From contig JAJYBH010000018.1 in the NCBI GenBank assembly GCA_021779135.1, positions 1-36,466 of the forward strand: a stretch of DNA of 36,466 nucleotides, in the 5' to 3' direction. Shown one piece after another: positions 9,418 to 34,866 of the stretch. The position numbers and the translations under genes are program-made. The stretch comes from Deltaproteobacteria bacterium. GTDB taxonomy: Bacteria > Desulfobacterota > Desulfuromonadia > Geobacterales > Pseudopelobacteraceae. Positions within the stretch are counted from its first letter, which is position 1; each line of letters starts with the position of its first letter. Under the pieces are notes generated by a model. The model saw nothing but the letters and a program-made list of their open reading frames with translations, searched no databases and was not told the DNA's origin.

Positions 9418-9447
9418 GGATAACTCCTTAGATTCAAAAAATAATTT

Positions 9448-9548: not shown

Positions 9549-9587
9549 TAAAAGCCGTTAAAGCCTAACCCTGATAAACAGGATAAT

Positions 9588-11599: not shown

Positions 11600-11691
11600 G
11601 TTCACCTCCGTGATGTTAGGCCGGTATGCTCATAACTTGGCTTTCTATTGACAGTATGGCAGATTTTCCGGAGCGAAAGAATGTAATTCAG

Positions 11692-14982: not shown

Positions 14983-15088
14983 GCATACTCTCTTCGACTC
15001 TGCCAGCATGTCGCACGCAGAAATGGAATTTCTTCACTCTGTAAGGCTGTTACTCCGGCAACCTCTTGTACAAGCCGCTGGAGCGACT

Positions 15089-16766: not shown

Positions 16767-19700
16767 ATGCTATACAACAAATGCGCGGGTTTATCTGCGC
16801 TTTCATTAATACTTTTGTTTTCATTGATATTTTCTATTTTTCTGGTATGTGCGTCAAATAACGATGCGGTTGCCGCCATTCAGTGTTATGACTGCCACGG
16901 AACGCGCACAACCGTTGACAACCGGCCTGAGGATGCATCCTTTAGAAATGTCTCTACCGGCGGTTTCCCGGGAAACCACCAGCGGCACCTAGCCTATGGG
17001 GCAACTCCCAATTCCTGTCAGAAATGCCATCCCGGCAGCGCCGGTTACGTCTCAAGCCATAGGGACGGTCGAATCAAGATCTCCGGCAACATAAACTCCT
17101 CACCTCTTGTCACGACCTATCACAACTCCACCTCCGCCTTCCCCCAGACCGCAACCCCGACCCTGGCCAGTTGCAACAGCGTCAACTGCCACTTCGAATA
17201 CGGTACCCCGGACTGGGGAAGCGATCCCCAGAATACAAACTGCAGTACCTGCCATGCCTCCCCCCCCTCGGATGGCAGCCACCCCGGACTCACCGGCTCC
17301 GGCAAGAAGCATGGTGATTACCTCGGCACCGGCACCGGAAGCTGCATCAAATGTCACGCGAACAACACCACCTTTGCCCATGCCACCAGTGCCGGCAAGC
17401 GTGGCCTGGTGGTGAGATTCACCGCCGCGCCCAACAGCGGCGGCAGCTACAGCAGTGACGTCAGTTACCCCAAATACCTGCCGAGCCAGTCCCCGGCCCG
17501 CAACGGCACCTGTTCAGGCATCTATTGTCACAGTGATGGGCGGGGTGGCCCCGCTCTGATAACCCCGCAATGGTCGGGCGCGGATCCTCTCCCCTGCTAT
17601 GGATGCCATCGCGGCCGCACCACCGACAGCAGCCAGGCCAACTGCAACAGCAGTGTCGTGCAGGGGATCTGGTCATCCTCCAGCAGCAAATGCGTACCCG
17701 ACCTGACCATGTCGTCGAACGGCCATCATCGCCTGGTCGGTCCGCAGTGGATCAGGAAATATCCCTGCTACTACTGTCACAACAATACCGTTGACACATC
17801 CGGAACCATAAAAAACACCGCGGTCCACGACAACGGCGGCAAGGATGTAAAGATCGCGCCCCAATGGAACATCCTCGGGAGGTATTCCGCCAGTTACAAC
17901 CCGTCGACCAAGGTGTGCAGCGATGTGTATTGCCATAGTGATGGCACCACCGATCCCGAGGCGGTCAGGCCGTTTGCCTGGACCGAACCGAAGACGGAGT
18001 GCAACTCCTGCCACGGACATCCTGCCGGAACCTGCTCAACCGACACCTGCCACGACGGTAAAATCCACCCGGATGGCAGGCTCTGGGCAATAAAGACAGG
18101 CTATCCTCCCGGCAGCGAATGGATGGGGGCGATGCCGATGTTCCCCAACCAGGGTGCGGGGACGGCCCGCGCCAACTCGCATCCCCGCCACAGCCAGACC
18201 AATTTTACCTGCGATAATTGCCACGCCGCCACGGTCATTAACGGCTCCTGTACCACCTGCCATGCCGGCGGAATCCCCGCCGGCGGCATGGGTGAAGTGG
18301 CCCATATCAACCCGACATATCACGTCAACAAGAACAAGGATGTCGTCTTCAAGGATGGCGGCAGTTACGACGCCCTTGGAAAAACCTGTTCGGGCACCAC
18401 CTGCCACAGCGGCACCATCGATCCGGTCTGGGGCGGTTCGGTCAATGGAGCGGTCACCTGTCTGGGGTGCCATGGCGGCACAACGGACGTTGACGACTTC
18501 GGGTCATTCAATGGCGTCCAGGCCAAGATCAATATGGGGCAGTGGTACACGAGCGGCCATGGCCGCTACTCCTCGTCGGGCAACTATCCCGAATCCGGCA
18601 ACCCGGCCGCCAACTTTCCCGGCAATCCCTGCTGGTACTGTCACGACAACAACGTACTGCACAAAGATGCGGCCAACCCCTACCGCTTGCGCCACCATAC
18701 GCAGTACGAGCAGCGTTTTGAGAAGGAATGCGTCTACTGTCACATGCAGGGGTTGGACAGTGAATGTCTTGCCTGCCATAACGCCGCGGAATCGCTGGCG
18801 CCCCAGTTGGCCAGCACGGCAGTTGTTACGCTGCACGGCGGCACTCCAATGTCAGGCTGCCGTAACGGCGGCTGCCACGATACGGATGCCACGCTGCACA
18901 AAACCGACAGCGTCAGATTCTGGAGCAGTTCCGAGAAGGCGGATGTCAAGAATCAGTATGTCATGATGGGGGTCTGTCTGCAGTGCCATGACGACGATTC
19001 CGGCGGCCAATGCACCAGCTGCCACACCGCGCCGGTCGATAATCCGCTGAAGTATTCGCTCGGTTTCGATCCCAAGGTCGAAGGGAGCCGCTTTGTCAAG
19101 CCTAAGAAAGCCCGGGCCTCGTCGTCGCACTTCGGCTACAAGCACTATCGCGCCTATCAGACTGACGGCACCTGGATGGGGGGTAAGTTCTGCTGGGATT
19201 GTCATGACCCCCATGGCGATTCGAATATCTTTATGATCCAAGGCAAGGTGGCAACTACCACCGATGGCACCTTTGGCATACCGCTGACCCGCGCTGATGT
19301 CGTCTTCAGCCAGAAGAGGTCCGGAACCGATTATGTGCGCATCAAGGACCCGCAAAACCCGGATTTGCCGATAAACGGCATCTGCAATGTCTGTCATGTG
19401 CCGACCGGTAAGCATTACACCAGAAATGGCGGCGATTCACACAACCTCGGCCGGGTCTGCACGACCTGCCACGAGCACCGCTTTGCCGACAGCCACGCCA
19501 ACAAACAGAGCTGCGACAGTTGCCACAGCAACAAGAAGCCGGTTCCCAAGCATACGGCATTCGGGCTGCCGCGCGACTGCACCAAGTGCCACAACGGCAC
19601 GATCAACCAGCGCATGGATGTCATGGGACAGTTGAAGTCCAATTCGCACCATATCCAGGGCACCGAGGTCAACAACCGCCACTGCTATGCCTGTCACTGG

Positions 19701-21299
19701 GAGGCTACCCCCGAGGGGCTGATCGACGTCCGCCACCACGAGGGGTACAACTTCAAACAGTACACCTCGGTTAAGAATGCCAAGGTCGATCTGGTGGTCT
19801 GGCGTCCGGGGACCAGTTCAACAATCGGCGTTCGCCCCACCTATTACAACAGCACCACCTCCATCCAGTTCCTGGCAGCCAATATGGGTACCGCCGGAGA
19901 GCGCAACGAGGTGTCCAAGGTGAGCAACCATTGCCTGGGGTGCCACAGCGACCAGAACAATGACAACGCTCCCTTTGAAAACGATTGCCGGACACCGCGG
20001 CAGTACGCCTGGGATCGCCAGAGCGTCGCTTCCCGCTATTCCCAACCCGGGACCACGACCTGGGGCAAGTACAACTCGAATACCTACCCGGCCGCCAACA
20101 AGAAGGATACGATCGTCAAGGCGTTTTCGGCCCATGGCAATGCAGCCGGCAACAAAGGTGGCTGGAGCGCTGCCAGCGGATATGACGCCGCCATTCCGAT
20201 AACGCGGGGAGCCGCCGGCACACAGAACGTACAATGCTTTGACTGCCATAACTCGCACGGTTCCAAGGCGGTCGGAACTACTTCCAGCTACGTGACCTTC
20301 AACGGCACCAGGAATGGCGCCAATCTCAAGGAAACCCAGAAAGGGAAGGGCGGCTACAATGTCACCTATAAGGCGTCGGCGAACACTGCCGGTGTCAACC
20401 CGTACAACACCGGAGCCGGGCAGTGTTTTGACTGCCATGAAACCGCCAGCGGCGGCATAACCACCCCCTGGGGGTACGCGTCGACCTTCGGTGCGGCCGC
20501 ACCGGTCATGGGCTACCAGGACACCCCGCATTTCGGGGCCGGGTCAAAGGGTTCGGTTGCCCGCTACGACTACCGCGATTCCCGGAAAACCATCGTGAGC
20601 AGCCATCTCAAGGCCCAGACCTTCCTGAATTATTCCGCGCAGGGGACGATCAACGGCCTGTGCACCCCCTGCCATGACCCGCATGGGGTAAGCAAGACGC
20701 TGGGCGCCAATCAGGAATACGCGGTGCCGCTGCTCAAGGGTACCTGGATGACCTCGCCCTATCAGGAGGACAAGCCCGAATCGCGGCCGAGCGGTTCCAC
20801 CGGTATCTATGCCCAGCCCCCCTGGCGTACCGACCGGAACACCTTCTCCAACATGTATGACAACAGCAAGCGCATCCGGGAGAGCGCCGACAAATTCGCC
20901 GGCCTCTGTCTGCAGTGCCATCGCCAGGAAAAGCTGACTGACGGCGTCAACAAGAATACCCCCTTCAAGAGTCTCGACCGGGTACATGAGTCGGTCCAGG
21001 GCTGGGGCGCCAATGACGAGCATTCCTATCCCTGCTCCAAGTGCCATCAGCCGCACAGCTCCGGTCTGCCGCGCCTGCTGCAGACCGACTGCCTCAACGT
21101 CAATCATCGCGGCAACGTGGCCTCCGGTGGCTATCCCAACCAGAGCGGCTGGCGTGCAGGCAGGGTTTACGGTTTCCCCATGGGCACCTATGCCTACAAT
21201 TACGGGTTCCGCTGCCACACGGATACCTACAACAAGGATGACAAGTACTGGCCTCCCAACGCGGCCGGCGCCCGTTGGAACAATGTCAGCCCCTGGTGA
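16767..21299 (+). CDS. Giant multihaem c-type cytochrome with CXXCH and CXXXXCH sites
   Basis: This 1510-residue exported cytochrome has a signal peptide (hydrophobic residues 9-30, cleavage probably after DAVAA). I count 27 CXXCH motifs (from CYDCH near residue 40 to CSKCH near residue 1430) and 6 CXXXXCH motifs (CNSVNCH, CSGIYCH, CSDVYCH, CSTDTCH, CSGTTCH, CRNGGCH), so up to 33 covalent haems. The six long motifs all fall in the first half, in alternating order with CXXCH motifs, the pattern of the Geobacter CxxxxCH/CXXCH repeat family. The last 300 residues have fewer motifs and are Gly/Ser/Tyr-rich. Many histidines provide distal ligands. Electron transfer at the cell surface or in the periplasm is the likely role. 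GAGGGGG precedes the ATG. It heads a long co-oriented cluster. Confidence 0.95.
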   Translation: MLYNKCAGLSALSLILLFSLIFSIFLVCASNNDAVAAIQCYDCHGTRTTVDNRPEDASFRNVSTGGFPGNHQRHLAYGATPNSCQKCHPGSAGYVSSHRDGRIKISGNINSSPLVTTYHNSTSAFPQTATPTLASCNSVNCHFEYGTPDWGSDPQNTNCSTCHASPPSDGSHPGLTGSGKKHGDYLGTGTGSCIKCHANNTTFAHATSAGKRGLVVRFTAAPNSGGSYSSDVSYPKYLPSQSPARNGTCSGIYCHSDGRGGPALITPQWSGADPLPCYGCHRGRTTDSSQANCNSSVVQGIWSSSSSKCVPDLTMSSNGHHRLVGPQWIRKYPCYYCHNNTVDTSGTIKNTAVHDNGGKDVKIAPQWNILGRYSASYNPSTKVCSDVYCHSDGTTDPEAVRPFAWTEPKTECNSCHGHPAGTCSTDTCHDGKIHPDGRLWAIKTGYPPGSEWMGAMPMFPNQGAGTARANSHPRHSQTNFTCDNCHAATVINGSCTTCHAGGIPAGGMGEVAHINPTYHVNKNKDVVFKDGGSYDALGKTCSGTTCHSGTIDPVWGGSVNGAVTCLGCHGGTTDVDDFGSFNGVQAKINMGQWYTSGHGRYSSSGNYPESGNPAANFPGNPCWYCHDNNVLHKDAANPYRLRHHTQYEQRFEKECVYCHMQGLDSECLACHNAAESLAPQLASTAVVTLHGGTPMSGCRNGGCHDTDATLHKTDSVRFWSSSEKADVKNQYVMMGVCLQCHDDDSGGQCTSCHTAPVDNPLKYSLGFDPKVEGSRFVKPKKARASSSHFGYKHYRAYQTDGTWMGGKFCWDCHDPHGDSNIFMIQGKVATTTDGTFGIPLTRADVVFSQKRSGTDYVRIKDPQNPDLPINGICNVCHVPTGKHYTRNGGDSHNLGRVCTTCHEHRFADSHANKQSCDSCHSNKKPVPKHTAFGLPRDCTKCHNGTINQRMDVMGQLKSNSHHIQGTEVNNRHCYACHWEATPEGLIDVRHHEGYNFKQYTSVKNAKVDLVVWRPGTSSTIGVRPTYYNSTTSIQFLAANMGTAGERNEVSKVSNHCLGCHSDQNNDNAPFENDCRTPRQYAWDRQSVASRYSQPGTTTWGKYNSNTYPAANKKDTIVKAFSAHGNAAGNKGGWSAASGYDAAIPITRGAAGTQNVQCFDCHNSHGSKAVGTTSSYVTFNGTRNGANLKETQKGKGGYNVTYKASANTAGVNPYNTGAGQCFDCHETASGGITTPWGYASTFGAAAPVMGYQDTPHFGAGSKGSVARYDYRDSRKTIVSSHLKAQTFLNYSAQGTINGLCTPCHDPHGVSKTLGANQEYAVPLLKGTWMTSPYQEDKPESRPSGSTGIYAQPPWRTDRNTFSNMYDNSKRIRESADKFAGLCLQCHRQEKLTDGVNKNTPFKSLDRVHESVQGWGANDEHSYPCSKCHQPHSSGLPRLLQTDCLNVNHRGNVASGGYPNQSGWRAGRVYGFPMGTYAYNYGFRCHTDTYNKDDKYWPPNAAGARWNNVSPW

Positions 21300-21342
21300 T
21301 CGAATGTATTCAGACACGCTAAACACCATTACGAGGATAGTT

Positions 21343-24300
21343 ATGAAGATAGTGAACAATAGATCCCGGCTGCTGTCGCGGAGAGGCTGTCATTGGCCGA
21401 TCTCCGGTGTGTGTTGCGGCTTGCTGCTCGGCATGGCTGTCACCCTGCTGTCCGGATGGTGTACCTCCGCATATGCCGTCGGCGGTGACACGATCTCTCC
21501 CTTTCCGAAGAACGATGCCCGTAGCGGCCTGCAACGTGCAACCGCGGCGGTGGTGGATAACGGCGGTAACCAGATTGTCGCCGGGTATCAGAACCTGAGC
21601 GGCGGGACGGATGACGAGTATCTGACCGTCAAGGTCAATACTGATGGTTCGGTGGCGTGGCGTTCCACCCATAATCACTCAACGGGGTCGGACCGGATTG
21701 TTGCCGTCGTGGTCGACGGCAGCAACGATGTCATCGTGACCGGCTATGTCTGGAACGGCTCCAACAACGATATCCACACCATAAAGTACCGTGGTACGGA
21801 CGGAAGCGTGGTCTGGGAGGATACCTGGAACGGTGCGGCCGGAGGGGCCGACATGGCCACCTCGCTGGCCTATGATCCCGTCAACAATCTGCTCTATGTG
21901 GCGGGCTCTACCCAGAACGGCGGCGGTTACGACGATTTTGCCATCCTCAAATACGCAAACTCCTCCGGCGGTCCGGCCAACCCGCCCAGCGGCGTGTATA
22001 CCTATAACGCCACCGGCAAAGGCCCTCACCGGATCAAGGCCGTGGCGGCCAATGCCGGCGGATTTGTAGTGACCGGCGAATCCTATAACGGCACCGATTT
22101 CGACGCGCTGACCGTGCAGTTCACCCTGGCCGGCGTCAAATTCCACGAGTGGAGTTACGCATCCAGTGGCGGGCAGTACGATGCCGGCAAAGCGGTCGCG
22201 TTCGATTCCGCCGGAAACATCGTGGTGGCGGCCAAGGTGTCCAATACAGTCAACACTGATATCATGCTCCTGAAATATGACGCCTCCAGCGGGGCCGTGG
22301 TGTGGCAGAAAAAGATCGACGGCGGCTTCGATGATGAACCTGCAGGGCTGGCGGTGGATGGAAGCGATATCTACCTGCTGGGGATGACCTGGACCCTGGC
22401 CGGTCATGAGGACTTCTATCTGGCCCGGCATCTCGGCACGACCGGTGACCCGGTCTGGTCCGGCGCCCTGGTCTACAATTCCGGCGGCGCAGATGCCGAT
22501 TTCCCGGTCGGGCTGGCCGTGGGAGCAGGTGCCAACGGAGGTGTCTTTGTAACCGGCTATGCGATTACCGTTGTCAGCAATGACATTCTGACCATCAAGG
22601 CGGCCAAGGCCAATGGGACTCTGCTCTGGCAGCAGCGCTACAACGGTACCGCTGACCGGGACGAGCGCCCGGCCGGCATAGGCCTCGCCGCATCAGGCGC
22701 CGTGTGTGTTGCGGGCTGGACGGACGCCTGGAGCGGCGGCGCGACGGACTATGACCTGTTGTCGCTCAGATATGATTCTGGCCCTCTCGACCCGCCCAGC
22801 GCACTGACGGCGACCGCCGTTTCCAATACTTCGATCCAGCTCAACTGGACCAACAACGCCTCCAATGCCGACGGCTACAGAATCGAACGCAAACTGGGCG
22901 ACTCCGGCAGCTATGTGGAGATCGCGACGGTCGGCCCCGCTGTCGCCACCTATGCCGATCCGGGATTGACAGGCGAAAATTATTATTACTACCGCGTGCG
23001 GGCCTACAATGCCGCCAATGGCAACTCCGCCTACAGCAACGAGGCGCATGCCCTGACCAAGGTTGTCAGTTACGTTTCGCCGGTCTGGACCTTCCTCTAC
23101 AATGGCGCCGCCAACAGTGAAGACTATGCCCTCTCCATTGCTGCCGGCAGTGACGACCATCCGGTTGTCACCGGCTACAGCACGCTGGAAGAGGAGGGTG
23201 TCCCGGGCAGTTTTTCGACGGATTACTATACCCTGAAGCTGGACCGGACCAGCAAGGCCGTCAAATGGAATGCCCGATACGACAGCGGTTCCGGCGGCAT
23301 GGACCGCGCTACCCTGGTCTCGGTCCTGCCTGACAACGATGTACTGGTCACCGGCAATGCCTATCTGTCCGGGGCCGGCGGGTTTGATACGGACGAGATC
23401 TATACCATTAAATACCAGGCCTCGACGCACAGTGACCCCCTGCAGCCGCCGCCCGAACTGTGGCACGACCAGTTCGGCTACAGCGGTTCCGATCGTGCCT
23501 CGGCGGTGGCCGTGGCGACCGATGCCTCCAAAAAATCGGTCATTACGGGATTCGGGACCAATGCATCCGGCAACGACGACATCTACGTGATCAAGTACAA
23601 CGCCGATGGCAGCCGCTCATGGCCGGCCGCCATCTATGACAGTGGCCGCTATGAGTATCCCACTTCCGTGGCATTTGACACCGCCGGCAATGTCTTTGTA
23701 ACCGGTTATACCGAGAGCGTGAGCGGTGATACCGACTGGTTCACGGCCAAGTATGACGGTGCAACGGGGGCGCTGCTCTGGTCGGATACCTTTGACGGCG
23801 GTATTCACGGCAATGATTATGCCCGTTCGCTGGCTGTCGATGCAGCCGGCAATGCCTATGTTACCGGCTACATTACAACCGCTGGTGGCCAGGATTTCCA
23901 TACAATAAAATATGATGGCGCCGCGGTATCCGCGCAGCGCCGGATCTGGGAAAAGAGTTATGACGGTCCGGTGCATGGCGACGATGAAGGTGTCTCCGTC
24001 AAGGTAGATCCGATCGACGGCGCCGTGATGGTGACCGGGACACAGACCACCGCCGCCGGTGATACCGATTTTCACCTGATCCGCTATCAGGCGGCAGACG
24101 GTGCGATAGTCTGGGAGCGGACCTTTAATCGCCCCGGCAGCTATGAGTACCTCTCCGCCATGACCCTCGACTCATCCGGCTACATCTACGTCACCGGAAA
24201 CAGCCGGGGCGGCCCGGACTATGATGCAAGTTTTGACGCATCATCCAATATCCTTTCGCTGATCTATGATTTTGAGGGGACATTCCTGGGGGCGCTGCTC

Positions 24301-27300
24301 AATAATGGCGGGGGCAGGCAGAATGAGGCCGAGGCCATAGCCGCGAACAACCGGGGCGAGGCCTTTGTCGCCGGTTTCTGGAAGAATGCCGCCGGCAACG
24401 GGGATTATGCCGTGCTTAAACAGACCAATAGCTACATCCTGGTTCCGGCCCCGCTGACCGTTACGCCGCAGGCCGATTATACCAGGCTGCGGCTGGGGTG
24501 GCAGGAAAACAGCCCCGGGGCCTCATTCCGGATCTGGCGCACCCTGGGGCCGGCTACCCCGACCAGTGACTGGGGTACCCCGATCTACGACGGTCCGGCG
24601 GGTGTCAGCACCTTTGACAATAGCGGACTCGGGCAGGGGATCAACTACTGTTACCGGATCGAGGCCTACATCGGCAGTCTGAATTCAAGGCGTATCATTG
24701 CCTGCGCGACCACGACCCTGCCGGCGGCAACCCTGGCTGTCCCCCAGGTGATCTCGACCAGCCAGATCAACCTCTCCTGGGGCAACGTTCCGGCCAACAG
24801 CGGCTACCGGATCGAGAGAAAGATCGAGGCCGGCGCCTGGAGCGTGCTGGCCGAAACGGCAGCCGATGCGACCAGCTTTAGCGATAGCGGCCTTACGGCC
24901 GGCACACTCTACTCGTACCGGCTAACCGTCTTGAATGCCGGCGGGGTGTCCGCGACCAGTAATGAACGATCTGCGACAACTATCCCGGATGCACCGCTAC
25001 AGAGTGCGCCGACAGCTATTACCGCAACACAGGCAACATTGAACTGGAGCAATGTCTCGGGGGAAACCGGCTACAAGATTGAGCGTAAGCAGGGTACGGG
25101 CGGCAGCTGGTCGCAGCTTGCGTCAATCCCGAGTCCGAACGTCGTAACCGCTAACGACAGCGCGCTCACAGCGAATACCCAGTACTACTACCGCATCCGG
25201 GCGACGAATGCCGCCGGGGATTCCGTCTACAGCAACGAGCAGGGAGTGCTGACGCTGTTTGATTCGACCGTGTTGAGAGCCGCCGCCGGAACTTCAACCG
25301 CCACGATCGATCTGAGCTGGGACAATGTCGCCGGAGAGACCGGGTATACCATCCAGATGGGGGCTTGCGGCTACAATGGCGGATCGTATGACATCCCCTA
25401 CTGTATTGCCGCCTATGACTGGGCCTGGAACGGTTGGGTGAATCTGGCCACGCTGGGGCCCGACGTGACAACCTATCAGCACGCCGGCCTGGCAGCCGGG
25501 ACCGCGTATCGCTACCGGATTATCGCCAATGTTGCCGGAAACAGTTCCGCCCCCAGTAATACAATGATAGGATGGACCGCCCTGGCAGCTCCGGCGACCA
25601 TTGATGTCGCTCCTGCCTCGCAGACCGCGCTGACGGTCTCCTGGAGCGATGTTACCGGCGAAACCGGGTATGCCGTCGAACGCACCCTGGCCAGCCCGGT
25701 GAGCTGGGCCGTGGTTGCCGGCGCCGGTGCGCTGGCCGCCAACACCGTCTCGTATGCCGATAGCGGGTTGGCGCTTCAGACGGCCTACTGCTACCGGGTC
25801 AGGGCGATCAGCAGCATTTCCGGAACCTCTGCCACCAGTGCCGAGAAATGCCTGTCAACGCCCTTATCGGCTCCGGCGCTGAATGCCCCGATTACGGCGT
25901 CTACCACCCAGATTGACCTTTCCTGGAACAATATCAGCGGTAATACCGGCTATGAACTCCAGAGGCGTACCCTCAACGACCCGAATAATCCGGCCGGCGG
26001 AGCCTCGGAAGGGGAGTGGGGCGCTTGGGGCGCGTCGGTCGTTATCCCGGCGGACACGACATCATATTCCGCCACCGGACTTACCCCGGGATACACATAC
26101 CAATTCAGGGTGCTGGATACCTATAGCGGCGGGAAATCGGCCTGGAGCAACCTGCGACAGTTGACTACCATACCGCCGGCCCCGCTGATCAGCGGGGTGC
26201 GGATCGACTCTACCTCGCAGATGACGATCCTGTGGAATGATGTGTATGGTGAGACGAGCTACGGTCTGGAGTGGAAAGCCGGCAGCGGCGGGGCCTGGAG
26301 CGCGCCGATACCTGTGGCTGTCAACGCTGCGAGTTATGCCCACAGCGCCCTCACTCCCGACACGACCTATTACTACCGCATCCGGGCCACCGGCCCCGGC
26401 GGCACCTCGGCATACAGCGCGGAGGTTTCACAAACCACATCGCTGCCCCAGCTGAATCCGCTGACCGGTATTACTGCCTCCAGGATTGACCTCTCCTGGA
26501 ACTCGATTCCAGGCAATAGCGGCTATACGATCGAGCGCAAGATAGAAAATGGCGCCTGGGCCACCCTGATCACCACGGCGGCCAATGCGGTTGCGTATAC
26601 CGATACGGGGCTGACTGCCGGCACCCTCTATTCCTACCGCCTGAAGATGCTGACCGGAGCCGGCGCGACAGCACCAACCAATGAACAAGCCGCGACCACA
26701 ACGCCCGCTTCGACACCCCTGACGGTTACCGTGGTAAACGCATCCCAGGCGCAGTACTCATGGCCGGTTACGCCGGGTGCAACCAATTACAAGATCAGCA
26801 GAAAACCGGGGAGTGGCGGGGGCTATGTGGAGATTGCAAATATAGCCGCCGGTTATGCAAGCAGTTATTGCGGATATCCGGTACCCCGCATCGATTGCGC
26901 GGCGCCCACGCCGCTGACGGTCAGCGGCATTGATGGTGGTCTGGCCGGCAATACCCAGTACTGCTATAAAATAATCGCCTGGAACAGTACCGGCGGTGAT
27001 TCGGCCTCCAGTGCGGATGTGTGCGTGACAACCTCCGGGCTGGCAAATGACAATCTTTCGGCGGAGGCGCTCAATTCCTTCAAGGTCAGGCTGTCCTGGA
27101 CGGAGCTGTCCTGCGTCCCGGTCTCGTGCGCGGCCCCGCAAGGGTATGAATTGGAGCGCAAGGTCGCCTATGGTACCTGGACATCGGTAGCAACCGTCCC
27201 CGGTTCACAAAAAGAATTTACTGATACCTACGGATTGGAGCCGCTCAAGGTCTATACCTATCGCGTCCGCTCCTACAGCGCGGCAGACCACTCGCCGTAC

Positions 27301-27357
27301 AGCGAGACGAGCATCACGATGCCTGCCTACCAAGCGGACGACACGGCCTGCCAATGA
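21343..27357 (+). CDS. Secreted beta-propeller / fibronectin type III repeat protein
   Basis: This 2004-residue protein has a signal peptide ending near residue 46 (SGWCTSAYA). Residues about 48-480 are propeller-like repeats with recurring IVVTGY and TIKYD units. One fibronectin III domain follows (about 480-570), then a second block of the same propeller repeats (about 572-1030), then ten more fibronectin III domains to the C-terminus. I count 11 such domains, each with the core GYRIERK ... YYYRVRA. No catalytic motif is seen. The protein should be exported and may serve as a scaffold or adhesin for the neighbouring cytochrome. ATG at 21343 has GAGG 7 bases upstream and begins the signal peptide; the open frame extends 119 codons upstream inside the cytochrome gene, which I reject. 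Confidence 0.88.
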   Translation: MKIVNNRSRLLSRRGCHWPISGVCCGLLLGMAVTLLSGWCTSAYAVGGDTISPFPKNDARSGLQRATAAVVDNGGNQIVAGYQNLSGGTDDEYLTVKVNTDGSVAWRSTHNHSTGSDRIVAVVVDGSNDVIVTGYVWNGSNNDIHTIKYRGTDGSVVWEDTWNGAAGGADMATSLAYDPVNNLLYVAGSTQNGGGYDDFAILKYANSSGGPANPPSGVYTYNATGKGPHRIKAVAANAGGFVVTGESYNGTDFDALTVQFTLAGVKFHEWSYASSGGQYDAGKAVAFDSAGNIVVAAKVSNTVNTDIMLLKYDASSGAVVWQKKIDGGFDDEPAGLAVDGSDIYLLGMTWTLAGHEDFYLARHLGTTGDPVWSGALVYNSGGADADFPVGLAVGAGANGGVFVTGYAITVVSNDILTIKAAKANGTLLWQQRYNGTADRDERPAGIGLAASGAVCVAGWTDAWSGGATDYDLLSLRYDSGPLDPPSALTATAVSNTSIQLNWTNNASNADGYRIERKLGDSGSYVEIATVGPAVATYADPGLTGENYYYYRVRAYNAANGNSAYSNEAHALTKVVSYVSPVWTFLYNGAANSEDYALSIAAGSDDHPVVTGYSTLEEEGVPGSFSTDYYTLKLDRTSKAVKWNARYDSGSGGMDRATLVSVLPDNDVLVTGNAYLSGAGGFDTDEIYTIKYQASTHSDPLQPPPELWHDQFGYSGSDRASAVAVATDASKKSVITGFGTNASGNDDIYVIKYNADGSRSWPAAIYDSGRYEYPTSVAFDTAGNVFVTGYTESVSGDTDWFTAKYDGATGALLWSDTFDGGIHGNDYARSLAVDAAGNAYVTGYITTAGGQDFHTIKYDGAAVSAQRRIWEKSYDGPVHGDDEGVSVKVDPIDGAVMVTGTQTTAAGDTDFHLIRYQAADGAIVWERTFNRPGSYEYLSAMTLDSSGYIYVTGNSRGGPDYDASFDASSNILSLIYDFEGTFLGALLNNGGGRQNEAEAIAANNRGEAFVAGFWKNAAGNGDYAVLKQTNSYILVPAPLTVTPQADYTRLRLGWQENSPGASFRIWRTLGPATPTSDWGTPIYDGPAGVSTFDNSGLGQGINYCYRIEAYIGSLNSRRIIACATTTLPAATLAVPQVISTSQINLSWGNVPANSGYRIERKIEAGAWSVLAETAADATSFSDSGLTAGTLYSYRLTVLNAGGVSATSNERSATTIPDAPLQSAPTAITATQATLNWSNVSGETGYKIERKQGTGGSWSQLASIPSPNVVTANDSALTANTQYYYRIRATNAAGDSVYSNEQGVLTLFDSTVLRAAAGTSTATIDLSWDNVAGETGYTIQMGACGYNGGSYDIPYCIAAYDWAWNGWVNLATLGPDVTTYQHAGLAAGTAYRYRIIANVAGNSSAPSNTMIGWTALAAPATIDVAPASQTALTVSWSDVTGETGYAVERTLASPVSWAVVAGAGALAANTVSYADSGLALQTAYCYRVRAISSISGTSATSAEKCLSTPLSAPALNAPITASTTQIDLSWNNISGNTGYELQRRTLNDPNNPAGGASEGEWGAWGASVVIPADTTSYSATGLTPGYTYQFRVLDTYSGGKSAWSNLRQLTTIPPAPLISGVRIDSTSQMTILWNDVYGETSYGLEWKAGSGGAWSAPIPVAVNAASYAHSALTPDTTYYYRIRATGPGGTSAYSAEVSQTTSLPQLNPLTGITASRIDLSWNSIPGNSGYTIERKIENGAWATLITTAANAVAYTDTGLTAGTLYSYRLKMLTGAGATAPTNEQAATTTPASTPLTVTVVNASQAQYSWPVTPGATNYKISRKPGSGGGYVEIANIAAGYASSYCGYPVPRIDCAAPTPLTVSGIDGGLAGNTQYCYKIIAWNSTGGDSASSADVCVTTSGLANDNLSAEALNSFKVRLSWTELSCVPVSCAAPQGYELERKVAYGTWTSVATVPGSQKEFTDTYGLEPLKVYTYRVRSYSAADHSPYSETSITMPAYQADDTACQ

Positions 27358-27410
27358 GGACGTGACCAGTAATTGACGGAAGCTCAGATAACATCAACAG
27401 CCAAAGCCCT

Positions 27411-27438
27411 TTGCAAACGGCGCGTATTTTGCTACAGT
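27411..27438 (+). promoter_or_regulatory. Possible promoter within the leader of the beta-helix gene
   Basis: TTGCAA at 27411-27416 and TACAGT at 27433-27438 are 16 bases apart; each matches four of six consensus positions. The predicted start lies about 30 bases before the GTG of the short peptide and 190 bases before the beta-helix ATG. The upstream gene ends only 53 bases earlier, so read-through is also possible. Confidence 0.3.
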
Positions 27439-27471
27439 AAAAATATCTGTAATGAAGGGTGGTGAGGACTG

Positions 27472-27534
27472 GTGAAGAAAACGAAATACGCTCGTCCCAG
27501 GATTGTGGGGAGTGCAGTGGTTCACCCCTGCTGA
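27472..27534 (+). CDS. Candidate modified-peptide precursor, 20 residues, ending His-Pro-Cys before UGA
   Basis: A GTG start with GAGG 4 bases upstream opens 20 codons: MKKTKYARP, then RIVG, then SAVVHPC, followed by TGA. The composition (basic start, YxxPxI element, Gly-Ser centre, terminal Cys) resembles precursors of radical SAM-modified peptides, and YxxP is like the leader element recognised by PqqD-type domains. A strong hairpin after the UGA makes selenocysteine at residue 21 possible. Against that, the frame has no stop after the UGA and runs directly into the 825-residue protein, so a Sec product would be a huge fusion. The simplest reading is a free 20-residue peptide ending in Cys. 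A noncoding structured leader is also possible. Confidence 0.45.
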   Translation: MKKTKYARPRIVGSAVVHPC

Positions 27535-27547
27535 CAAGAGAGGTCGG

Positions 27548-27573
27548 GAGGCATCGGTGCATACCGGTGCCTC
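27548..27573 (+). other. SECIS-like or terminator-like hairpin
   Basis: GAGGCATCGGT (27548-27558) pairs with ACCGGTGCCTC (27563-27573) through 11 pairs, one of them T-G, around the loop GCAT. The loop begins 24 bases after the UGA at 27532-27534 and starts with G, which fits bacterial SECIS criteria. It is followed by TCTTTA, a poor terminator tract. An alternative outer pairing of AGAGAGG with CCTCTCT is also possible. Confidence 0.5.
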
Positions 27574-27630
27574 TCTTTATGTATTCAGCGTCACCACAAG
27601 GTTCGGGTCCTCTCAATCACATTACAAATT

Positions 27631-30108
27631 ATGAGATACCATAACTACATATCGCTAATTCTCTCCAGTGCCCTTTTCGTACTTCTGTTGAATTCCCCCG
27701 TACAAGCAACCGTTTTGACCGCGGATACCGTCTGGCATGGCGATGTGGTCGTCACTGATGACGTTCTGGTGCCTGTGGGCATTACGCTGACTGTCCTCGC
27801 CGGAACGCGTATCACGCTGCAGGTCGCCGAAAACACCAAGACCGATCCCGAATATCTTTCACCGCTTGCCGAAATCACGGTCCGGGGCGCCTTGCGGGTA
27901 CAGGGGAGTCAGCAGTCGCCGGTTGAATTCGGCTCCTCCGCCGGAAAGCCGGGCACCTGGGCCGGCATCATCATCGATAACGGAAGCGCGGAGATAGCCA
28001 ACTGCCGTATCAGCGCCGCTGATACGGGGGTCTATCTAACGGGCGGGACCCTGCGGCTCACCTCATCCACCCTGACCGGCAACCGTTACGGGGTTGTCGT
28101 GCAGGGGGCAAACTCGACGGCGATCCTCGGCAACAGCAGGATAACCGGCAATGACGTTGGTCTGTTTACCTACGCTGGTGCAACGGTAACACGGCAGGAT
28201 ACGCAGGTAACCGGAAACGGCAAGCGCGATCTGTACGAGCGCCCTGCTGTAGCGGCGACTCCGCTCATGCACGAATTTCCCTACAAAGAGCTGCCGGTCG
28301 CCAGGGAATATGGTGATGAAGCCTTGGCAGGGGAAACTGTCTGGCAGGGGAGGATCCGGGTGAACGGCCTCATCCGCGTCCCCGATGGCGGGAGACTGAT
28401 TATCCTTCCCGGTACGGTCGTCGAATTCAGCAAAAAGGACACCAACGGAGATGGCATCGGCGAAAACGGTCTTTTCATCCAGGGTCGCCTGCTTGCCAAG
28501 GGGACCCGCGAAGCGCCGATCTTCTTCCGCTCAGCTGAAAAAAACCGGAAAATGGGTGATTGGGACTCCATCAACATCATGAACAGCGATGGCAGCCAGA
28601 ACCTGATCGAATATTGCCAGATCGAGGATGCCTACCGGGGGGCACACTTTCACTTTGCCAATCTAGCGATCACCAACACGGTATTTCGCAACAACTATCG
28701 CGGGGTCCAGTTTCAGGAATCGGCCATTGCTATCCGGAATAGCTGGATTTATGGCAACAAGAGCGGTCTGCAGGGGCGTGACTCGACCATCGTATTCAAT
28801 AATAATCAGGTAGCCGATAATTATGACGGAGCCAATTTCTTCAGGGTCAACCTGACTGCCGAGGGGAACCGCTTCCTGCGGAACCAGAAGGAGGGTCTGC
28901 GCCTACGGGAAAGCACCTCGGCGATTACGGGAAATCTCGTGGATGCTAACCGCTTCGGGGTGATGATTGCCGATACATATCGCAGCAGTTTCAGCCGCAA
29001 TGTCATCTCCGCCAACAGTGAGTTCGGCGTCTCCCTGAAGAACTCCGACAATCTGGAACTGTCCGGCAACTTCTTTACCGGCAACGGTATCAATGGTCTA
29101 AATATCCAGGACTCCAGCGCCACCGTGCGGGGCAACCTTTTTGCCGGCAATGGCGAGCGGGGAATCGGCATCCTGTCGTTCAGCGGATATCTGACGGGAA
29201 ATAATTTTATGAAAAACGGTCTGTACGCGGTCGATTATGAAGGCACTGCCGATCTGGCGGCACCTGACAACTGGTGGGGCGTTGCCAAACCGGAACAGGT
29301 TATCGGCGACAGGCGGATCGACCCGCGGCGCGGCAGGGTCACGGCCGACCCCGCAAGCAGCGTGCCGCAGGCCATCACCTGGCCCCTCAACGAGATTTCG
29401 GCGGACGCATCCTGGTCTGGCAGCGTTCGGGTGAATGCAACGGTAACCGTTCCCAAGGGGAGCAGCCTGGTTATTGAACCGGGTACCCGGGTGCTGTTCG
29501 CCAGGGGAACCGGTTTGACGGTACAGGGAAAGCTGGAAGCGGTCGGTACACGGACGGACAAAATCACCTTCAGCGCTCAAGAGCCGCGCGAGGATTCGCT
29601 CTGGGATGAGATAATCATGGAATACGCGGATGGGAGCAAGATCGCCAACTGCATTTTCGAATACGCCACCTGGGGACTGCACAGCCACTTCACAAATCTC
29701 ACCGTGACAGACAGCCTGTTCCGCAAAAATTCCGGCGGCATCCGCTTCCGGAGCGGTCCGATGCTGATTACCCGCTCGGTCTTCACGGGGAACGGAATCG
29801 GCATCAGGGCCTATCGCGGTAACGCCGTCATCCGGGAGAATCTGATAACCGACAATGACACCGGCATCTTTGTCCGGGAAAAGGGGAGCGGCCTGAAGAT
29901 CACCGGCAACAATCTGGCCGCCAATCGTGGCTATGGTGTCCGCATCGGCGATTTCAACGACGAGGATGTCTCTGCCCGGGAGAACTGGTGGGGGCCTGGC
30001 GATCCGCAGCAGTATCTGTACGACGGGCGCAGCGAACCGGGAATCGGTATGATTCTGTATGAACCGTATCGCCATGAACCGCCCAGCCTGGAAGGTGTCC
30101 AGCCATGA
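27631..30108 (+). CDS. Exported right-handed beta-helix (NosD/CASH-like) protein
   Basis: This 825-residue protein has a signal peptide (ISLILSSALFVLLLNSPVQA). It has three similar modules starting near residues 33, 235 and 592, each opening with W-x-G and a stretch of VP-x-G-x-x-L-x-I-x-PGT, followed by parallel beta-helix repeats such as NTVFRNNYRGVQF and ITGNDVGLF. This matches the NosD/periplasmic copper-binding or CASH (carbohydrate-binding and sugar hydrolase) type of beta-helix. No catalytic site is evident. A structural or ligand-binding surface role is likely. There is no Shine-Dalgarno sequence before the ATG, which is unusual; translation may be coupled to the upstream short ORF. 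The stop overlaps the next start (ATGA). Confidence 0.85.
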   Translation: MRYHNYISLILSSALFVLLLNSPVQATVLTADTVWHGDVVVTDDVLVPVGITLTVLAGTRITLQVAENTKTDPEYLSPLAEITVRGALRVQGSQQSPVEFGSSAGKPGTWAGIIIDNGSAEIANCRISAADTGVYLTGGTLRLTSSTLTGNRYGVVVQGANSTAILGNSRITGNDVGLFTYAGATVTRQDTQVTGNGKRDLYERPAVAATPLMHEFPYKELPVAREYGDEALAGETVWQGRIRVNGLIRVPDGGRLIILPGTVVEFSKKDTNGDGIGENGLFIQGRLLAKGTREAPIFFRSAEKNRKMGDWDSINIMNSDGSQNLIEYCQIEDAYRGAHFHFANLAITNTVFRNNYRGVQFQESAIAIRNSWIYGNKSGLQGRDSTIVFNNNQVADNYDGANFFRVNLTAEGNRFLRNQKEGLRLRESTSAITGNLVDANRFGVMIADTYRSSFSRNVISANSEFGVSLKNSDNLELSGNFFTGNGINGLNIQDSSATVRGNLFAGNGERGIGILSFSGYLTGNNFMKNGLYAVDYEGTADLAAPDNWWGVAKPEQVIGDRRIDPRRGRVTADPASSVPQAITWPLNEISADASWSGSVRVNATVTVPKGSSLVIEPGTRVLFARGTGLTVQGKLEAVGTRTDKITFSAQEPREDSLWDEIIMEYADGSKIANCIFEYATWGLHSHFTNLTVTDSLFRKNSGGIRFRSGPMLITRSVFTGNGIGIRAYRGNAVIRENLITDNDTGIFVREKGSGLKITGNNLAANRGYGVRIGDFNDEDVSARENWWGPGDPQQYLYDGRSEPGIGMILYEPYRHEPPSLEGVQP

Positions 30109-30893
30109 GCAGCGAATTGACCCATTGCGGCTGTGCCGGCTCAAACCAAGGGCCCCGACAGCTTCGCCCTTCATTGGGACCGGCATTCCGGGCGCTGCGG
30201 AAAAGGCTCGCTTTTCCCGTACTGTTGTTGCTGTTGACCTGCTTCTCTCTCCCTGCCTCCGTGTCGGCGCTGGATACGTTCGTATTGAGCGGCCGGATCA
30301 TGAACATAGACGGCCAGCCGGTCAGCGGGGCTGAGCTCTTTGTCTACGACAGTCCCGTCACTCGGCGGCCGGCGGATTTCATCTCGGCCCGCACGGGACA
30401 GGACGGACGCTTCAGTCTGACACTGCCGCGCAAGAAGGTCTGGGCCGTTGCCCGGGTACGCGGTAGTGACAAATTCGGCCCGCTGCTGCCCGGGGACCGC
30501 CATTCAGGTGAAGCATTGATTCTGGAGCCGGACGACAGCGCGGAGTTGCGGCAGGATTTTACGGTGGTCAATATTTGGGAAGCGGCGCGGCAGAAGCAGA
30601 AAACAAGCGCTGAGTACCAACGTGTGACCGGCCGGGTGCTGGACCGCCAGGGTAAACCGGCTGACAATGCCTATGTCTTTGCCCATCCGCAAAAAACCGT
30701 GCGGGGAATACCCGGGCATATTTCAGCCTGGACCGATGAAAGCGGCATCTACACCCTGTACCTTCCGCCGGGTCGTCATTATCTGGGGGCAAGCACCGTC
30801 TTCCCGCCTCCTCAAGGATCCAGCGCCAGCAGGGAATTGGTCGTGGAACCCGGCAAAAATGCAGTTGCTATTGATATTAAGTTACCACTATAA
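30105..30893 (+). CDS. Exported protein with two carboxypeptidase-regulatory-like domains
   Basis: This 262-residue protein has an unusually long N-terminal cytoplasmic extension (about 35 residues) followed by a hydrophobic segment (FPVLLLLLTCFSLPASVSA), so it may be a signal peptide or a membrane anchor. Two beta-sandwich domains follow, one at about residues 62-150 (LSGRIMNIDGQPVSGAELFVY ... DGRFSLTLP) and one at 177-262 (VTGRVLDRQGKPADNAYVFAH ... SGIYTLYLPPGRHYL). This is the carboxypeptidase regulatory-like or Cna-B-like fold, a non-catalytic surface domain. The start codon overlaps the stop of the beta-helix gene, so the two are translationally coupled. Confidence 0.8.
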   Translation: MSSELTHCGCAGSNQGPRQLRPSLGPAFRALRKRLAFPVLLLLLTCFSLPASVSALDTFVLSGRIMNIDGQPVSGAELFVYDSPVTRRPADFISARTGQDGRFSLTLPRKKVWAVARVRGSDKFGPLLPGDRHSGEALILEPDDSAELRQDFTVVNIWEAARQKQKTSAEYQRVTGRVLDRQGKPADNAYVFAHPQKTVRGIPGHISAWTDESGIYTLYLPPGRHYLGASTVFPPPQGSSASRELVVEPGKNAVAIDIKLPL

Positions 30894-30953
30894 TCAAAAA
30901 ATAGTCCGGCGATTAGGTTGCAATCAGCAATAGACCTGCCCGAAGGAGATTGT

Positions 30954-31511
30954 ATGAAACATGTTGTAATTTCACTTTTACTTCTGTGCGCCTTTTTGAT
31001 GACACCTCCAGCCCAGGCCTGCGTGGGAAAAACACTTTTCGTGGGGATATCCGGCCCCCCCCAGGAGATGCTCCTGGCCGAGATGGTTTCCCAGCTGATT
31101 ACCGAACGTACCGGAACCACGGTGAAAATCCAGCAATACAAGGACAGTGCGGAGCTTTACAATGCGATCAAAAAGGGCGAGGTCGGGATGCTGGTGGAGA
31201 GCACGGACCGTGCCCTCCAGATCCTTGGCCGCAAGGAGGGTAATTCCCAACTGGCCTACGAACTGGTTAAAAAAGAGTATCGCAAGAGCATGAATCTGGT
31301 CTGGCTCGATCCGTTCGGCACCAGTCATCCGCATGCCCCGGTAATTTCGCTTGATACCATCGGTCATTTGCCTGCCCTCCCCAAACTGCTCAATAAACTG
31401 GCCGGTGTAATGAATGATGACAATTACGCCAAGTTGCTCAAATCCCTCAAATCCGACGAAAAACCGCACCAGATCGCCCGCGATTTTCTGAAAGCCAAAA
31501 AGCTTATCTGA
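30954..31511 (+). CDS. Small periplasmic OpuAC-like substrate-binding protein
   Basis: This 185-residue protein has a signal peptide (MKHVVISLLLLCAFLMTPPAQA) and a mature part beginning with cysteine, so a lipoprotein or a disulfide is possible. The fold resembles the OpuAC glycine-betaine-binding family: GKTLFVGISGPPQEMLLAEMV then TVKIQQYKDSAELYNAIKKGEVGML. It is shorter than usual solute-binding proteins (about 270 residues), so the second lobe is reduced and ligand binding is uncertain. No ABC transporter permease or ATPase is adjacent. AAGGAG lies 6 bases before the ATG, and an in-frame TTG at 30918 is not preferred. Confidence 0.72.
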   Translation: MKHVVISLLLLCAFLMTPPAQACVGKTLFVGISGPPQEMLLAEMVSQLITERTGTTVKIQQYKDSAELYNAIKKGEVGMLVESTDRALQILGRKEGNSQLAYELVKKEYRKSMNLVWLDPFGTSHPHAPVISLDTIGHLPALPKLLNKLAGVMNDDNYAKLLKSLKSDEKPHQIARDFLKAKKLI

Positions 31512-31516
31512 TCGAC

Positions 31517-32443
31517 GTGGATCATCAGTCACCGCAACCGATATCTACACGCCTGTACCGCTTTCTGGGTGGCGGCAATCTAGCGCTCATTCTGTTCGGC
31601 GTTATAACATTGCTGACACTCCCGGGAACCTTCGGGTTTGGCCGTTCTTTATATTCCAATCCGTTTTTCAAGGTCGTACTCGGCCTATTGATGGTGAACC
31701 TGCTCGTCTGCACCCTGCAGCGCTGGAGAAGGCTGAAGTGGCCCGTTCTGCTGCTGCACGGTGGGGTTCTGGTTGTCATGGTCGGCGCCTTCCTTACTTC
31801 GCTGGGGTATGTGGCCACGGTCAACATCCTTGAGGGCGGGAAGACGGAGCTGGCATACCGCTGGGACCTGGAGCAGGACATGCCGCTTGGCTTTGATCTG
31901 GCGGTGGAAAAGATCCATCGGGAATACCTGCCGCTTCCGGTCAAGGTCGGGGTTCTGCAGGGAGTGGAAAAGGTCGGCCTGTTTACCCTCAAAACCGGCG
32001 AGAGTTTCCTTGTCGGAGATTACCGGGTCCAGGTTGACTCGATCGATCTTGATTCGGATTCCCTTCATCTGACGATCTTTCAGGGAGAACGCACCCTCGG
32101 TACCGCTACAACGGCCGGAGTATCCAGCCTGCCGGTCGGATTTCCCTATGCGTTCAAACTTGTGGCGTTCAAAAACCCGGTGCTCCGGCGAACCTGGGTA
32201 GACCTGAAACTCACGCAGGATGCCACACTGCTGACGCATGGCAGCACCGAAATAAACAAGCCCTTTCAGTGGGGTGGCTTGTACTTTTACTCCACTTTGC
32301 TCGACAAGGCAGCCAACGGGGAGCCGTTTGCCGGTATTCAGATCGTCAAGGACCCGGGCCGTCCCGTGGTATTCGCCGGATTTGCACTGGCGGGGATCGG
32401 TGCCCTGGCACTATTTATGAGAAGGTTGACGGGAAAAAGGTAA
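31517..32443 (+). CDS. ResB-like cytochrome c biogenesis protein
   Basis: This 308-residue protein has about four membrane helices: near residues 20-40 (LALILFGVITLLTL), 50-68, 76-100 (PVLLLHGGVLVVMVGAFL) and 282-300 (FAGFALAGIGALALF). A periplasmic domain of about 180 residues lies between helices 3 and 4. This layout and the LLHGG segment match ResB/CcsB of cytochrome c maturation system II, which presents haem to apocytochromes. The usual partner CcsA/ResC is not nearby. The start GTG at 31517 lies 5 bases after the preceding stop and lacks a clear ribosome binding site, so coupling is likely. Confidence 0.82.
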   Translation: MDHQSPQPISTRLYRFLGGGNLALILFGVITLLTLPGTFGFGRSLYSNPFFKVVLGLLMVNLLVCTLQRWRRLKWPVLLLHGGVLVVMVGAFLTSLGYVATVNILEGGKTELAYRWDLEQDMPLGFDLAVEKIHREYLPLPVKVGVLQGVEKVGLFTLKTGESFLVGDYRVQVDSIDLDSDSLHLTIFQGERTLGTATTAGVSSLPVGFPYAFKLVAFKNPVLRRTWVDLKLTQDATLLTHGSTEINKPFQWGGLYFYSTLLDKAANGEPFAGIQIVKDPGRPVVFAGFALAGIGALALFMRRLTGKR

Positions 32444-32499
32444 TCAGTACGATTGAAGTTAACGCACGCATCCTGTTTATCAGGGTTTTGAGGTAGAAT

Positions 32500-34407: not shown

Positions 34408-34454
34408 CAAGGTTCACGTAATATGCGGAAGTCACATCTATCTCGGGAGGATTC

Positions 34455-34775
34455 ATGAAATCACAGGTATTCGATGTAAAGAACATCAAGAAATTCACTG
34501 ATGAAAAACGCCATATGGAAATCATATGGTCCGATGATCACGCCAAGATCAGCCTGATCTGCATGAAGCCGGGGCAGGAAATCATCACCCACACCCACCA
34601 CGGCAGCCACATCTGGACTGTCATGGAAGGCACTGGCGAGCTTGTTTCCGGTAAACAGGCACAGACCATAACAATGGGGCAGATCGTTGTCGTGCCAGCT
34701 TTTGAGGACCATGGCATACGGAACTCTTCGACCGAAAACCTGGTGATCGCCTCGATAACAGGGCAGGGCGACTAG
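34455..34775 (+). CDS. Cupin-domain protein
   Basis: This 106-residue protein is a single conserved beta-barrel of the cupin_2 type. The metal-binding motif 1 is GQEIITHTHHGSHIWTVMEG, containing His residues and a Glu, and motif 2 is GQIVVVPAFEDHGIRNS. A metal-dependent dioxygenase, isomerase or sensor role is possible; the substrate is unknown. GGGAGG lies before the ATG with good spacing. It lies between the permease gene and the GeoRSP operon. Confidence 0.85.
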   Translation: MKSQVFDVKNIKKFTDEKRHMEIIWSDDHAKISLICMKPGQEIITHTHHGSHIWTVMEGTGELVSGKQAQTITMGQIVVVPAFEDHGIRNSSTENLVIASITGQGD

Positions 34776-34833: not shown

Positions 34834-34866
34834 AAATTTGAAAAGCTAAGAAAGCCGGTGAAAGAG

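Follow-up and report, generated by a model that had tools for sequence, protein, structure and literature searches.

A candidate peptide substrate for the GeoRSP radical SAM enzyme and its link to giant multihaem cytochrome operons in Geobacter relatives

Introduction

Among the closest described parallels to the locus examined here are the pathways that make two ribosomally derived redox cofactors, pyrroloquinoline quinone (PQQ) and mycofactocin. In PQQ biosynthesis (PqqA-PqqD-PqqE), PqqA is a peptide of ~20 residues that lacks an obvious separate leader and carries the motif Glu-x3-Tyr; in mycofactocin biosynthesis (MftA/B/C), MftA is likewise short and has a conserved motif at its C-terminus. 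PqqD-type domains take up short precursor peptides and deliver them to radical S-adenosylmethionine (SAM)/SPASM enzymes, which make cross-links. A further radical SAM family, GeoRSP, is named in NCBIfam (models TIGR04302, TIGR04303 and TIGR04304), with neither target nor role found in print. Here we describe a GeoRSP locus on a 36,466-nucleotide stretch of DNA (hereafter the window), which is the entire contig C18 of its source genome (JAJYBH010000018.1, a deltaproteobacterium of the Geobacterales), and we propose a candidate substrate for its radical SAM enzyme.

A literature search, with little coverage of subscription papers and bioRxiv preprints, gave no paper on the GeoRSP system, its models, the peptide or the cytochrome link; the only match for the name GeoRSP was an unrelated ecology paper. 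Passages in another paper concern lasso peptides of Geobacter uraniireducens and Pelobacter, a different system (PMC4289311).

Results

By sequence, the system has four core components: a gene for a peptide of ~20 residues, a PqqD-type chaperone, a PqqE-like radical SAM/SPASM enzyme and a SPASM-only partner. They are placed in the window as follows.

27472..27534, + strand: unannotated open reading frame (ORF) of 20 codons, (M)KKTKYARPRIVGSAVVHPC, with a GTG start and GAGG upstream; candidate GeoRSP radical SAM precursor
27546..27575, + strand: terminator-like hairpin immediately 3' of the peptide ORF, with a T-rich tail (folding energy of the 59 nt -25.3 kcal/mol, z -4.35)
34858..35181, + strand: GeoRSP PqqD-family peptide chaperone (TIGR04302, 158.1 bits, cut-off 100)
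35171..36175, + strand: GeoRSP radical SAM/SPASM enzyme (TIGR04303, 557.4 bits, cut-off 400)
36172..36466, + strand: 5' part of the GeoRSP SPASM-domain gene, split by the contig end, the rest being on contig C152

The SPASM gene scored 46.2 bits against TIGR04304 (cut-off 300), with just its first 98 residues in the window. Over its last 156 nt the window overlaps contig C152 at that contig's end (99.4% identity), and there the remainder of the gene is followed by PhnD-like and TPR genes. The three GeoRSP genes are closely packed (-11 nt between PqqD and radical SAM, -4 nt between radical SAM and SPASM) and lie 3' of the cupin gene with which a preliminary description of this DNA had closed its cluster at position 34775. 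That boundary was not upheld, as these genes continue the locus to the contig end. The radical SAM enzyme contains C21-C25-C28 (CX3CX2C) and, from residue 246, the SPASM pattern CX9-15GX4C ... CX2CX5CX3C ... C, which are the motifs of radical SAM/SPASM peptide maturases. Its nearest solved structure by sequence is PqqE (6c8v). Assignments as PqqE itself (145 bits, below the cut-off of 381) or as the mycofactocin maturase (174 bits, below 265) were rejected.

The peptide was recognised by clustering small ORFs at 90 loci: among the families listed, the one common to different arrangements was a ~20-residue peptide ending in VHPC, with ORFs of 17-21 residues and the consensus MKKxxYxxP[RK][VI]VGSxxVHPC. 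Many other clusters were shadow ORFs of conserved neighbours, and one variant held a lipoprotein-like ORF of ~95 amino acids; these clusters were set aside because they overlapped conserved coding genes or were restricted to one arrangement. A degenerate DNA pattern for the C-terminal half of the peptide was present in 37 of 141 genomes of the order, with 1-6 copies each, and its reversed control in none of the 141. Outside the order it was found in 32 of 39 system-positive genomes, a selection from the loci there rather than all of them. Since the pattern fixed Pro -12, Val -4 and the His, Pro and Cys, and restricted positions -10 and -9, the fixed residues are no evidence in themselves. The Tyr at -15, which did not belong to the search pattern, was nevertheless found in all 132 distinct copies, together with Gly -8 in 127 and Ser -7 in 109 of them. 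Across the same 132 copies, identity at codon positions 1, 2 and 3 was 0.742, 0.753 and 0.369, respectively, versus 0.25-0.27 in distant flanks. Given these codon-position identities and the invariant Tyr, the peptide is, as judged by DNA comparison, under protein-level constraint. The product of the 20-codon ORF is probably what the GeoRSP radical SAM enzyme acts on. With a relaxed motif, one other peptide variant was recovered from the loci, with VYPC instead of VHPC at its end (L138:343).

The peptide ORF of the window follows two large genes, listed here with the cytochrome module that was used in the genome comparison.

16767..21299, + strand: giant multihaem cytochrome c, 1510 aa, with 27 CXXCH and 6 CX4CH motifs and an N-terminal hydrophobic segment; variable cargo unit
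19554..21296, + strand: C-terminal cytochrome module, residues ~930-1510 (~580 residues)
21343..27357, + strand: beta-propeller (SBBP)/fibronectin type III (Fn3) protein, 2004 aa from the likely ATG; variable cargo unit

We then asked how far the radical SAM gene, the peptide and this cytochrome module keep company. TIGR04303 was above its cut-off in 35 of the 141 order genomes, from 13 of 29 genera, and in none of 14 control genomes. The radical SAM gene and the module occurred together in 35 genomes, the radical SAM gene alone in none, the module alone in 4 and neither in 102 (Fisher p 5e-29; this and the following p-values take species as independent, which species are not). For the radical SAM gene and the peptide, the corresponding figures were 33 with both, 2 with the radical SAM gene alone, 4 with the peptide alone and 102 with neither (p 2e-25), and for the peptide and the module 36 with both, 1 with the peptide alone, 3 with the module alone and 101 with neither (p 7e-29). 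As a rough check on kinship, eight genera contain both positive and negative species. On these comparisons, the linkage of radical SAM gene, peptide and cytochrome module is strong. The preliminary description had proposed electron carriers with dedicated helpers, and this idea fits the data well, the helper locus co-occurring with the cytochrome family in 35 of 35 radical-SAM-positive genomes. The window's own cytochrome and propeller are, however, variable cargo, and the helper set named there missed the core (PqqD, radical SAM/SPASM and mini-peptide), which lies outside or between its eight genes.

Deduplication of the matches left 138 peptide copies. The gene directly upstream, on the same strand and within 400 nt, coded for a cytochrome in 43 cases, the radical SAM enzyme in 23, a protein resembling the CarboxypepD_reg (transthyretin-like; CPREG) type in 18, a propeller in 13 and a beta-helix protein in 1; ten copies lay at locus ends and two had no upstream ORF. 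A sample of eight upstream proteins, unassigned or CPREG-like, gave matches that included FG-GAP, He_PIG and CarboxypepD_reg, and two without a match. A terminator-like hairpin stood 3' of 102 of the 138 copies, compared with 21 of 138 random stretches. The window's own genome (G000) has two further peptide copies, on contigs C61 and C172 (L257 and L258); one of the two lies 122 nt behind a gene for a 1619-aa cytochrome with 23 haems.

Turning to the cargo genes, the C-terminal module is common to 37 of 40 peptide-linked cytochromes, whose lengths and haem numbers vary. A sequence-based search of solved structures with the module found no relative; within the window cytochrome, one part gives a match to the MtrC/MtrF domain II/IV Pfam family. 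A 99-nt stretch of the cytochrome gene (within 16767-18000) has an 81% identical copy elsewhere in the same genome (G000:C27:1578-1676). The propeller ORF had been listed from 20986, inside the cytochrome gene; it more likely begins with the ATG at 21343, which is preceded by a Shine-Dalgarno-like GAGG and leaves 43 nt to the end of the cytochrome gene. Between the beta-helix and cupin genes neighbours are closely spaced (-4 to 56 nt), in keeping with the overlapping or closely spaced starts mentioned in the preliminary description. Because the 273-nt gap between the propeller and beta-helix genes contains the 20-codon ORF and the terminator-like hairpin, the cytochrome and propeller genes are probably a transcription unit separate from the genes from the beta-helix onward. 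A sigma-70 scan of 27300-27700 gave no promoter, and Rfam and tRNA scans of the window gave no matches.

Beyond this gap begins the conserved locus, the front half of which consists of six genes.

27631..30108, + strand: secreted right-handed beta-helix protein (Beta_helix/NosD Pfam)
30105..30893, + strand: exported two-domain CPREG protein (Pfam)
30954..31511, + strand: predicted single-lobe OpuAC/OpuBC-like periplasmic protein with an invariant Cys at the predicted mature N-terminus
31517..32443, + strand: short ResB-like membrane protein, 308 aa
32500..34407, + strand: ArsP_1-type permease with an extra C-terminal domain (Pfam)
34455..34775, + strand: small cupin with conserved His46/48/52/86, which travels with the permease

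Together with the cytochrome and propeller genes, these are the eight long ORFs, all in one orientation between 16767 and 34775, that had originally been noted, and Pfam agrees with the domain types given for them: multihaem cytochrome c, SBBP propeller with Fn3, right-handed beta-helix (NosD-type), CarboxypepD_reg, OpuAC, ResB, ArsP_1 and cupin. In relatives, the order beta-helix, CPREG, OpuAC-like, ResB, transporter, PqqD, radical SAM and SPASM recurs around the TIGR04303 gene. Other genera and phyla keep the gene order of the six-gene part, which, on the loci compared, is more than chance. The synteny anticipated in the preliminary description therefore holds for this part; a homologue of the window cytochrome or a propeller gene precedes the locus in only some relatives. 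On this ground the eight genes are, by comparison of gene order, one two-gene cargo unit plus the front half of a separate conserved unit.

The conserved envelope module comprises the beta-helix, transthyretin-like, predicted single-lobe OpuBC-like, PhnD-like, TPR, YeeE/YedE-like and short ResB proteins and an ArsP_1 or NicO transporter. At the 30 loci of the order that span 15 kb or more, tblastn recovered beta-helix in 28, CPREG in 28, OpuAC-like in 30, ResB in 28, PqqD in 30 and SPASM in 29, and the PhnD-like, TPR and YeeE/YedE-like genes in 20 each. The transporter slot of these 30 loci held the ArsP_1 permease and cupin in 17 and a NicO-type protein (by Pfam) in 8, never both, and neither in 5; in one of these five, G034, the permease and cupin genes are ~535 kb distant. 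The ResB type was present, in one copy each, in all 35 radical-SAM-positive genomes and in G043 and G101. Further relatives were represented by the best 80 of 234, of which 27 were duplicates of order genomes and were excluded from the conservation, small-ORF and tblastn counts. Cultured strains that bear the locus include Geobacter sp. OR-1 and Pelotalea chapellei. Nitrospirota share these genes but arrange them somewhat differently, and in a third arrangement, in Desulfuromonadales, ResB and the permease were not found with the references used. Three variations deserve mention. An FmdE/DksA zinc-finger gene sits between the SPASM and PhnD-like genes in some relatives (L035:2815-3363). In the Desulfuromonadales arrangement (L187, L195, L199 and L204), a gene that looks, from its N-terminus, like a class V aminotransferase/cysteine desulfurase lies 3' of SPASM. 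In G075 (L254) the locus is split: pieces with PhnD-like, TPR, YeeE/YedE-like, beta-helix and NicO genes adjoin a peptide copy and are close to ResB, and the radical SAM gene is ~1.2 Mb away from these pieces and from ResB.

Several of these proteins were compared individually with known families. The OpuAC-like ORF had been listed from a TTG at 30918, its likely start being the ATG at 30954. Its predicted model (pLDDT, the predicted local distance difference test score, 88; 185 residues) aligns over 160 residues with OpuAC 5nxy (Z 23.2, root-mean-square deviation 1.8); as 5nxy has 272 residues (chain range 4-274), the window protein would by its length be one lobe, and it would then be an OpuBC/EgtU-like protein reduced to a single lobe, with an invariant Cys. 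The ResB-like protein scored 41.8 bits against a Pfam cut-off of 24.6, with its best stretch covering only residues 257-301, and matched CcsBA 7s9y weakly (E 0.0023); no ResC/CcsA partner was recognised in the window cluster, to which the search was confined. The PhnD-like protein has a lipoprotein-type Cys, and the YeeE/YedE-like membrane protein has invariant or nearly invariant cysteines. Searching solved structures by sequence gave no match for the YeeE/YedE-like and beta-helix proteins. More specific names were rejected for the beta-helix protein as the NosD equivalog (TIGR04247, 44.3 bits, cut-off 300) and for the permease as the SO_0444 Cu/Zn exporter (NF033936, 94.7 bits, cut-off 300) or as SaoE (NF040736, 84.3 bits, cut-off 325).

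Other genes of the window were noted too. A rubrerythrin/ferritin-like protein (15680-16258, + strand) is encoded immediately 5' of the cytochrome gene. Upstream on the opposite strand lies a flavoprotein gene (13570-15009, - strand) with 490 bits against the NCBIfam cut-off of 454 for the mercury(II) reductase MerA. Genes for pyruvate dehydrogenase E2, E1 beta and E1 alpha are consecutive at 8167-11605 (- strand), the listed E1 beta ORF having ~98 surplus N-terminal residues ahead of the matched region.

Discussion

We consider it likely, if some way short of certain, that the window holds a GeoRSP main locus and one cargo operon, and that the locus makes a radical-modified mini-peptide for surface cytochromes and related secreted proteins. 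As shown by co-occurrence and gene order, one predicted system per genome is accompanied by several operons. Each encodes either a giant multihaem cytochrome that bears the module, in some cases together with a propeller/Fn3 protein, or a different secreted protein, and a copy of the peptide gene closes many of these operons. In the proposed scenario, PqqD would present the peptide to the radical SAM enzyme, and this enzyme would form a bond within the invariant stretch Tyr...Val-His-Pro-Cys. Export, finishing or installation of the modified peptide would fall to the envelope module. In extracellular electron transfer, the surface cytochromes and propellers might then use the mature peptide as a redox or metal cofactor that they bind, or as a factor in their assembly. 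The presence of envelope genes (predicted single-lobe OpuBC-like, PhnD-like, YeeE/YedE-like, short ResB and a metal-type transporter) suggests that the product is finished or used outside the cytoplasm.

Several observations weigh against this proposal. In the nearly complete genomes G034 and G105, both of which carry radical SAM gene and module, no peptide was found even with 2 mismatches or with an N-terminal pattern. Conversely, four genomes have the peptide without the radical SAM gene: G043, G046 and G114, which are 81, 81 and 66% complete, and G117, which is 97% complete and lacks the module as well. G103 has the module with neither radical SAM gene nor peptide. The upstream gene is unassigned for 28 of the 138 peptide copies. 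In addition, among 124 module copies (taken from the matches listed, with at most 9 candidates scored per genome and with short second pieces and contig-end fragments excluded), only 43 are followed on their own strand by a peptide gene no more than 20 kb away, 33 of them within 3 kb; 6 have a peptide upstream and 2 one on the opposite strand. The pairing of cytochrome module and peptide is therefore common and not one-to-one. For the fold of the module, the AlphaFold model (pLDDT 59.7) gave no Foldseek match at E <= 0.001, and the roles proposed for the envelope proteins rest on domain likeness.

A more far-reaching reading, which is conceivable but not likely, is that GeoRSP yields a redox cofactor of ribosomal origin, the third after PQQ and mycofactocin, or else a redox or metal centre carried by the peptide, and that this is mounted on giant surface cytochromes and propellers. 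When Geobacter relatives, Desulfuromonadales and Nitrospirota transfer electrons out of the cell, it could then mediate the transfer or provide a docking group.

A competing explanation, which we regard as rather unlikely, sees the peptide as a ligand for metal or sulfur, secreted or periplasmic and comparable to a metallophore. The system would then mainly supply metal or sulfur, and the cytochrome operons would carry the peptide because they depend on this supply. The mutual exclusion of ArsP_1 and NicO in one slot would fit such a function, NicO being a nickel/cobalt-type family, as would the NosD-like beta-helix, the four-His cupin, the conserved cysteines of the YeeE/YedE-like protein and the His-Pro-Cys terminus of the peptide. 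The peptide copies, however, are tied to giant cytochromes and propellers and not to metal transporters. Moreover, the permease falls below the Cu/Zn and SaoE equivalog cut-offs, and the genes scanned, which included part of the flanking genes, held no recognisable siderophore-type receptor.

It is improbable that the 20-codon ORF is a regulatory or attenuator ORF at operon ends and that the radical SAM enzyme has another substrate. The frequent terminator-like hairpins would be explained in this way, and neither a classical leader/core split nor a dedicated protease was seen. Yet the ORF lies at operon 3' ends or between the radical SAM and SPASM genes rather than in the 5' leader of one gene type, its residues are conserved while its codons vary, and it co-occurs almost perfectly with the radical SAM gene. 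Even less credit is due to the idea that the co-occurrence is due only to a genomic island passed on as a whole, vertically or horizontally, with no functional tie between its parts. Presence is indeed patchy within genera, and some copies repeat one cytochrome-peptide unit within a genome, so that the copies are not independent. Peptides and cytochromes are nonetheless spread over several contigs or lie hundreds of kb from the locus, split loci keep their genes in one genome (the permease-cupin pair of G034 and the radical SAM and ResB genes of G075 being examples), and concordance extends over eight mixed genera and other phyla. Finally, the original view, in which the eight genes make up one surface electron-transfer machine complete in itself and ResB attaches haem, is hardly tenable: all eight are adjacent and co-oriented, and ResB matches its Pfam family and, weakly, CcsBA, but the six-gene part recurs without the cytochrome or propeller of the window, a terminator-like hairpin lies between the two parts and the conserved locus extends into the GeoRSP genes.

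Returning to the reading that we favour, a radical-modified mini-peptide for surface proteins, its value is that the candidate substrate of a named radical SAM family is now concrete. With 18-20 residues it is easily synthesised, which makes the substrate question directly testable. A link to the giant multihaem cytochrome family would join radical SAM peptide chemistry to extracellular electron transfer, and the peptide may help the bacteria that bear the locus to pass electrons to their surroundings. The peptide motif also aids in finding such cytochrome operons in metagenomes.

Comparison with known systems

Among the systems that share single elements with the locus, MtrC/OmcA-type outer-surface cytochromes resemble the window cytochrome through the partial MtrC/MtrF match. 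MtrC is much smaller, however, no porin-cytochrome partner was recognised in the locus, and the C-terminal module is without a solved relative by sequence. System II cytochrome c biogenesis (ResB/CcsBA) shares the ResB Pfam domain and the weak CcsBA likeness, but the window ResB is short and has no ResC/CcsA recognised adjacent to it. Within the order, its type is confined to the 35 positive genomes and two others. The beta-helix envelope protein belongs to the Pfam family of NosD, known from the maturation of nitrous oxide reductase (NosD/NosDFYL), whereas the ABC (ATP-binding cassette) pair NosFY was not recognised in the locus.

The peptide-derived cofactor pathways also share elements with the locus. 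Mycofactocin biosynthesis has a radical SAM maturase of the same wider group; unlike it, GeoRSP is tied to multihaem cytochromes, and no other mft gene was recognised in the scanned genes. The PQQ pathway shares with GeoRSP the PqqD-type chaperone, the PqqE-like radical SAM/SPASM enzyme and a precursor of similar size without an obvious separate leader. In place of Glu-x3-Tyr, the window peptide has the invariant Tyr and the C-terminal Val-His-Pro-Cys, several peptide copies per genome lie behind cytochrome genes, and an envelope module is added. Lastly, GeoRSP itself is the described system to which the window belongs, its PqqD and radical SAM proteins passing the equivalog cut-offs. What was known, according to the literature searched, are the three models and radical SAM peptide maturation; the models name three proteins, and the envelope module, the peptide and the unexpected cytochrome partner go beyond them and have no description in that literature.

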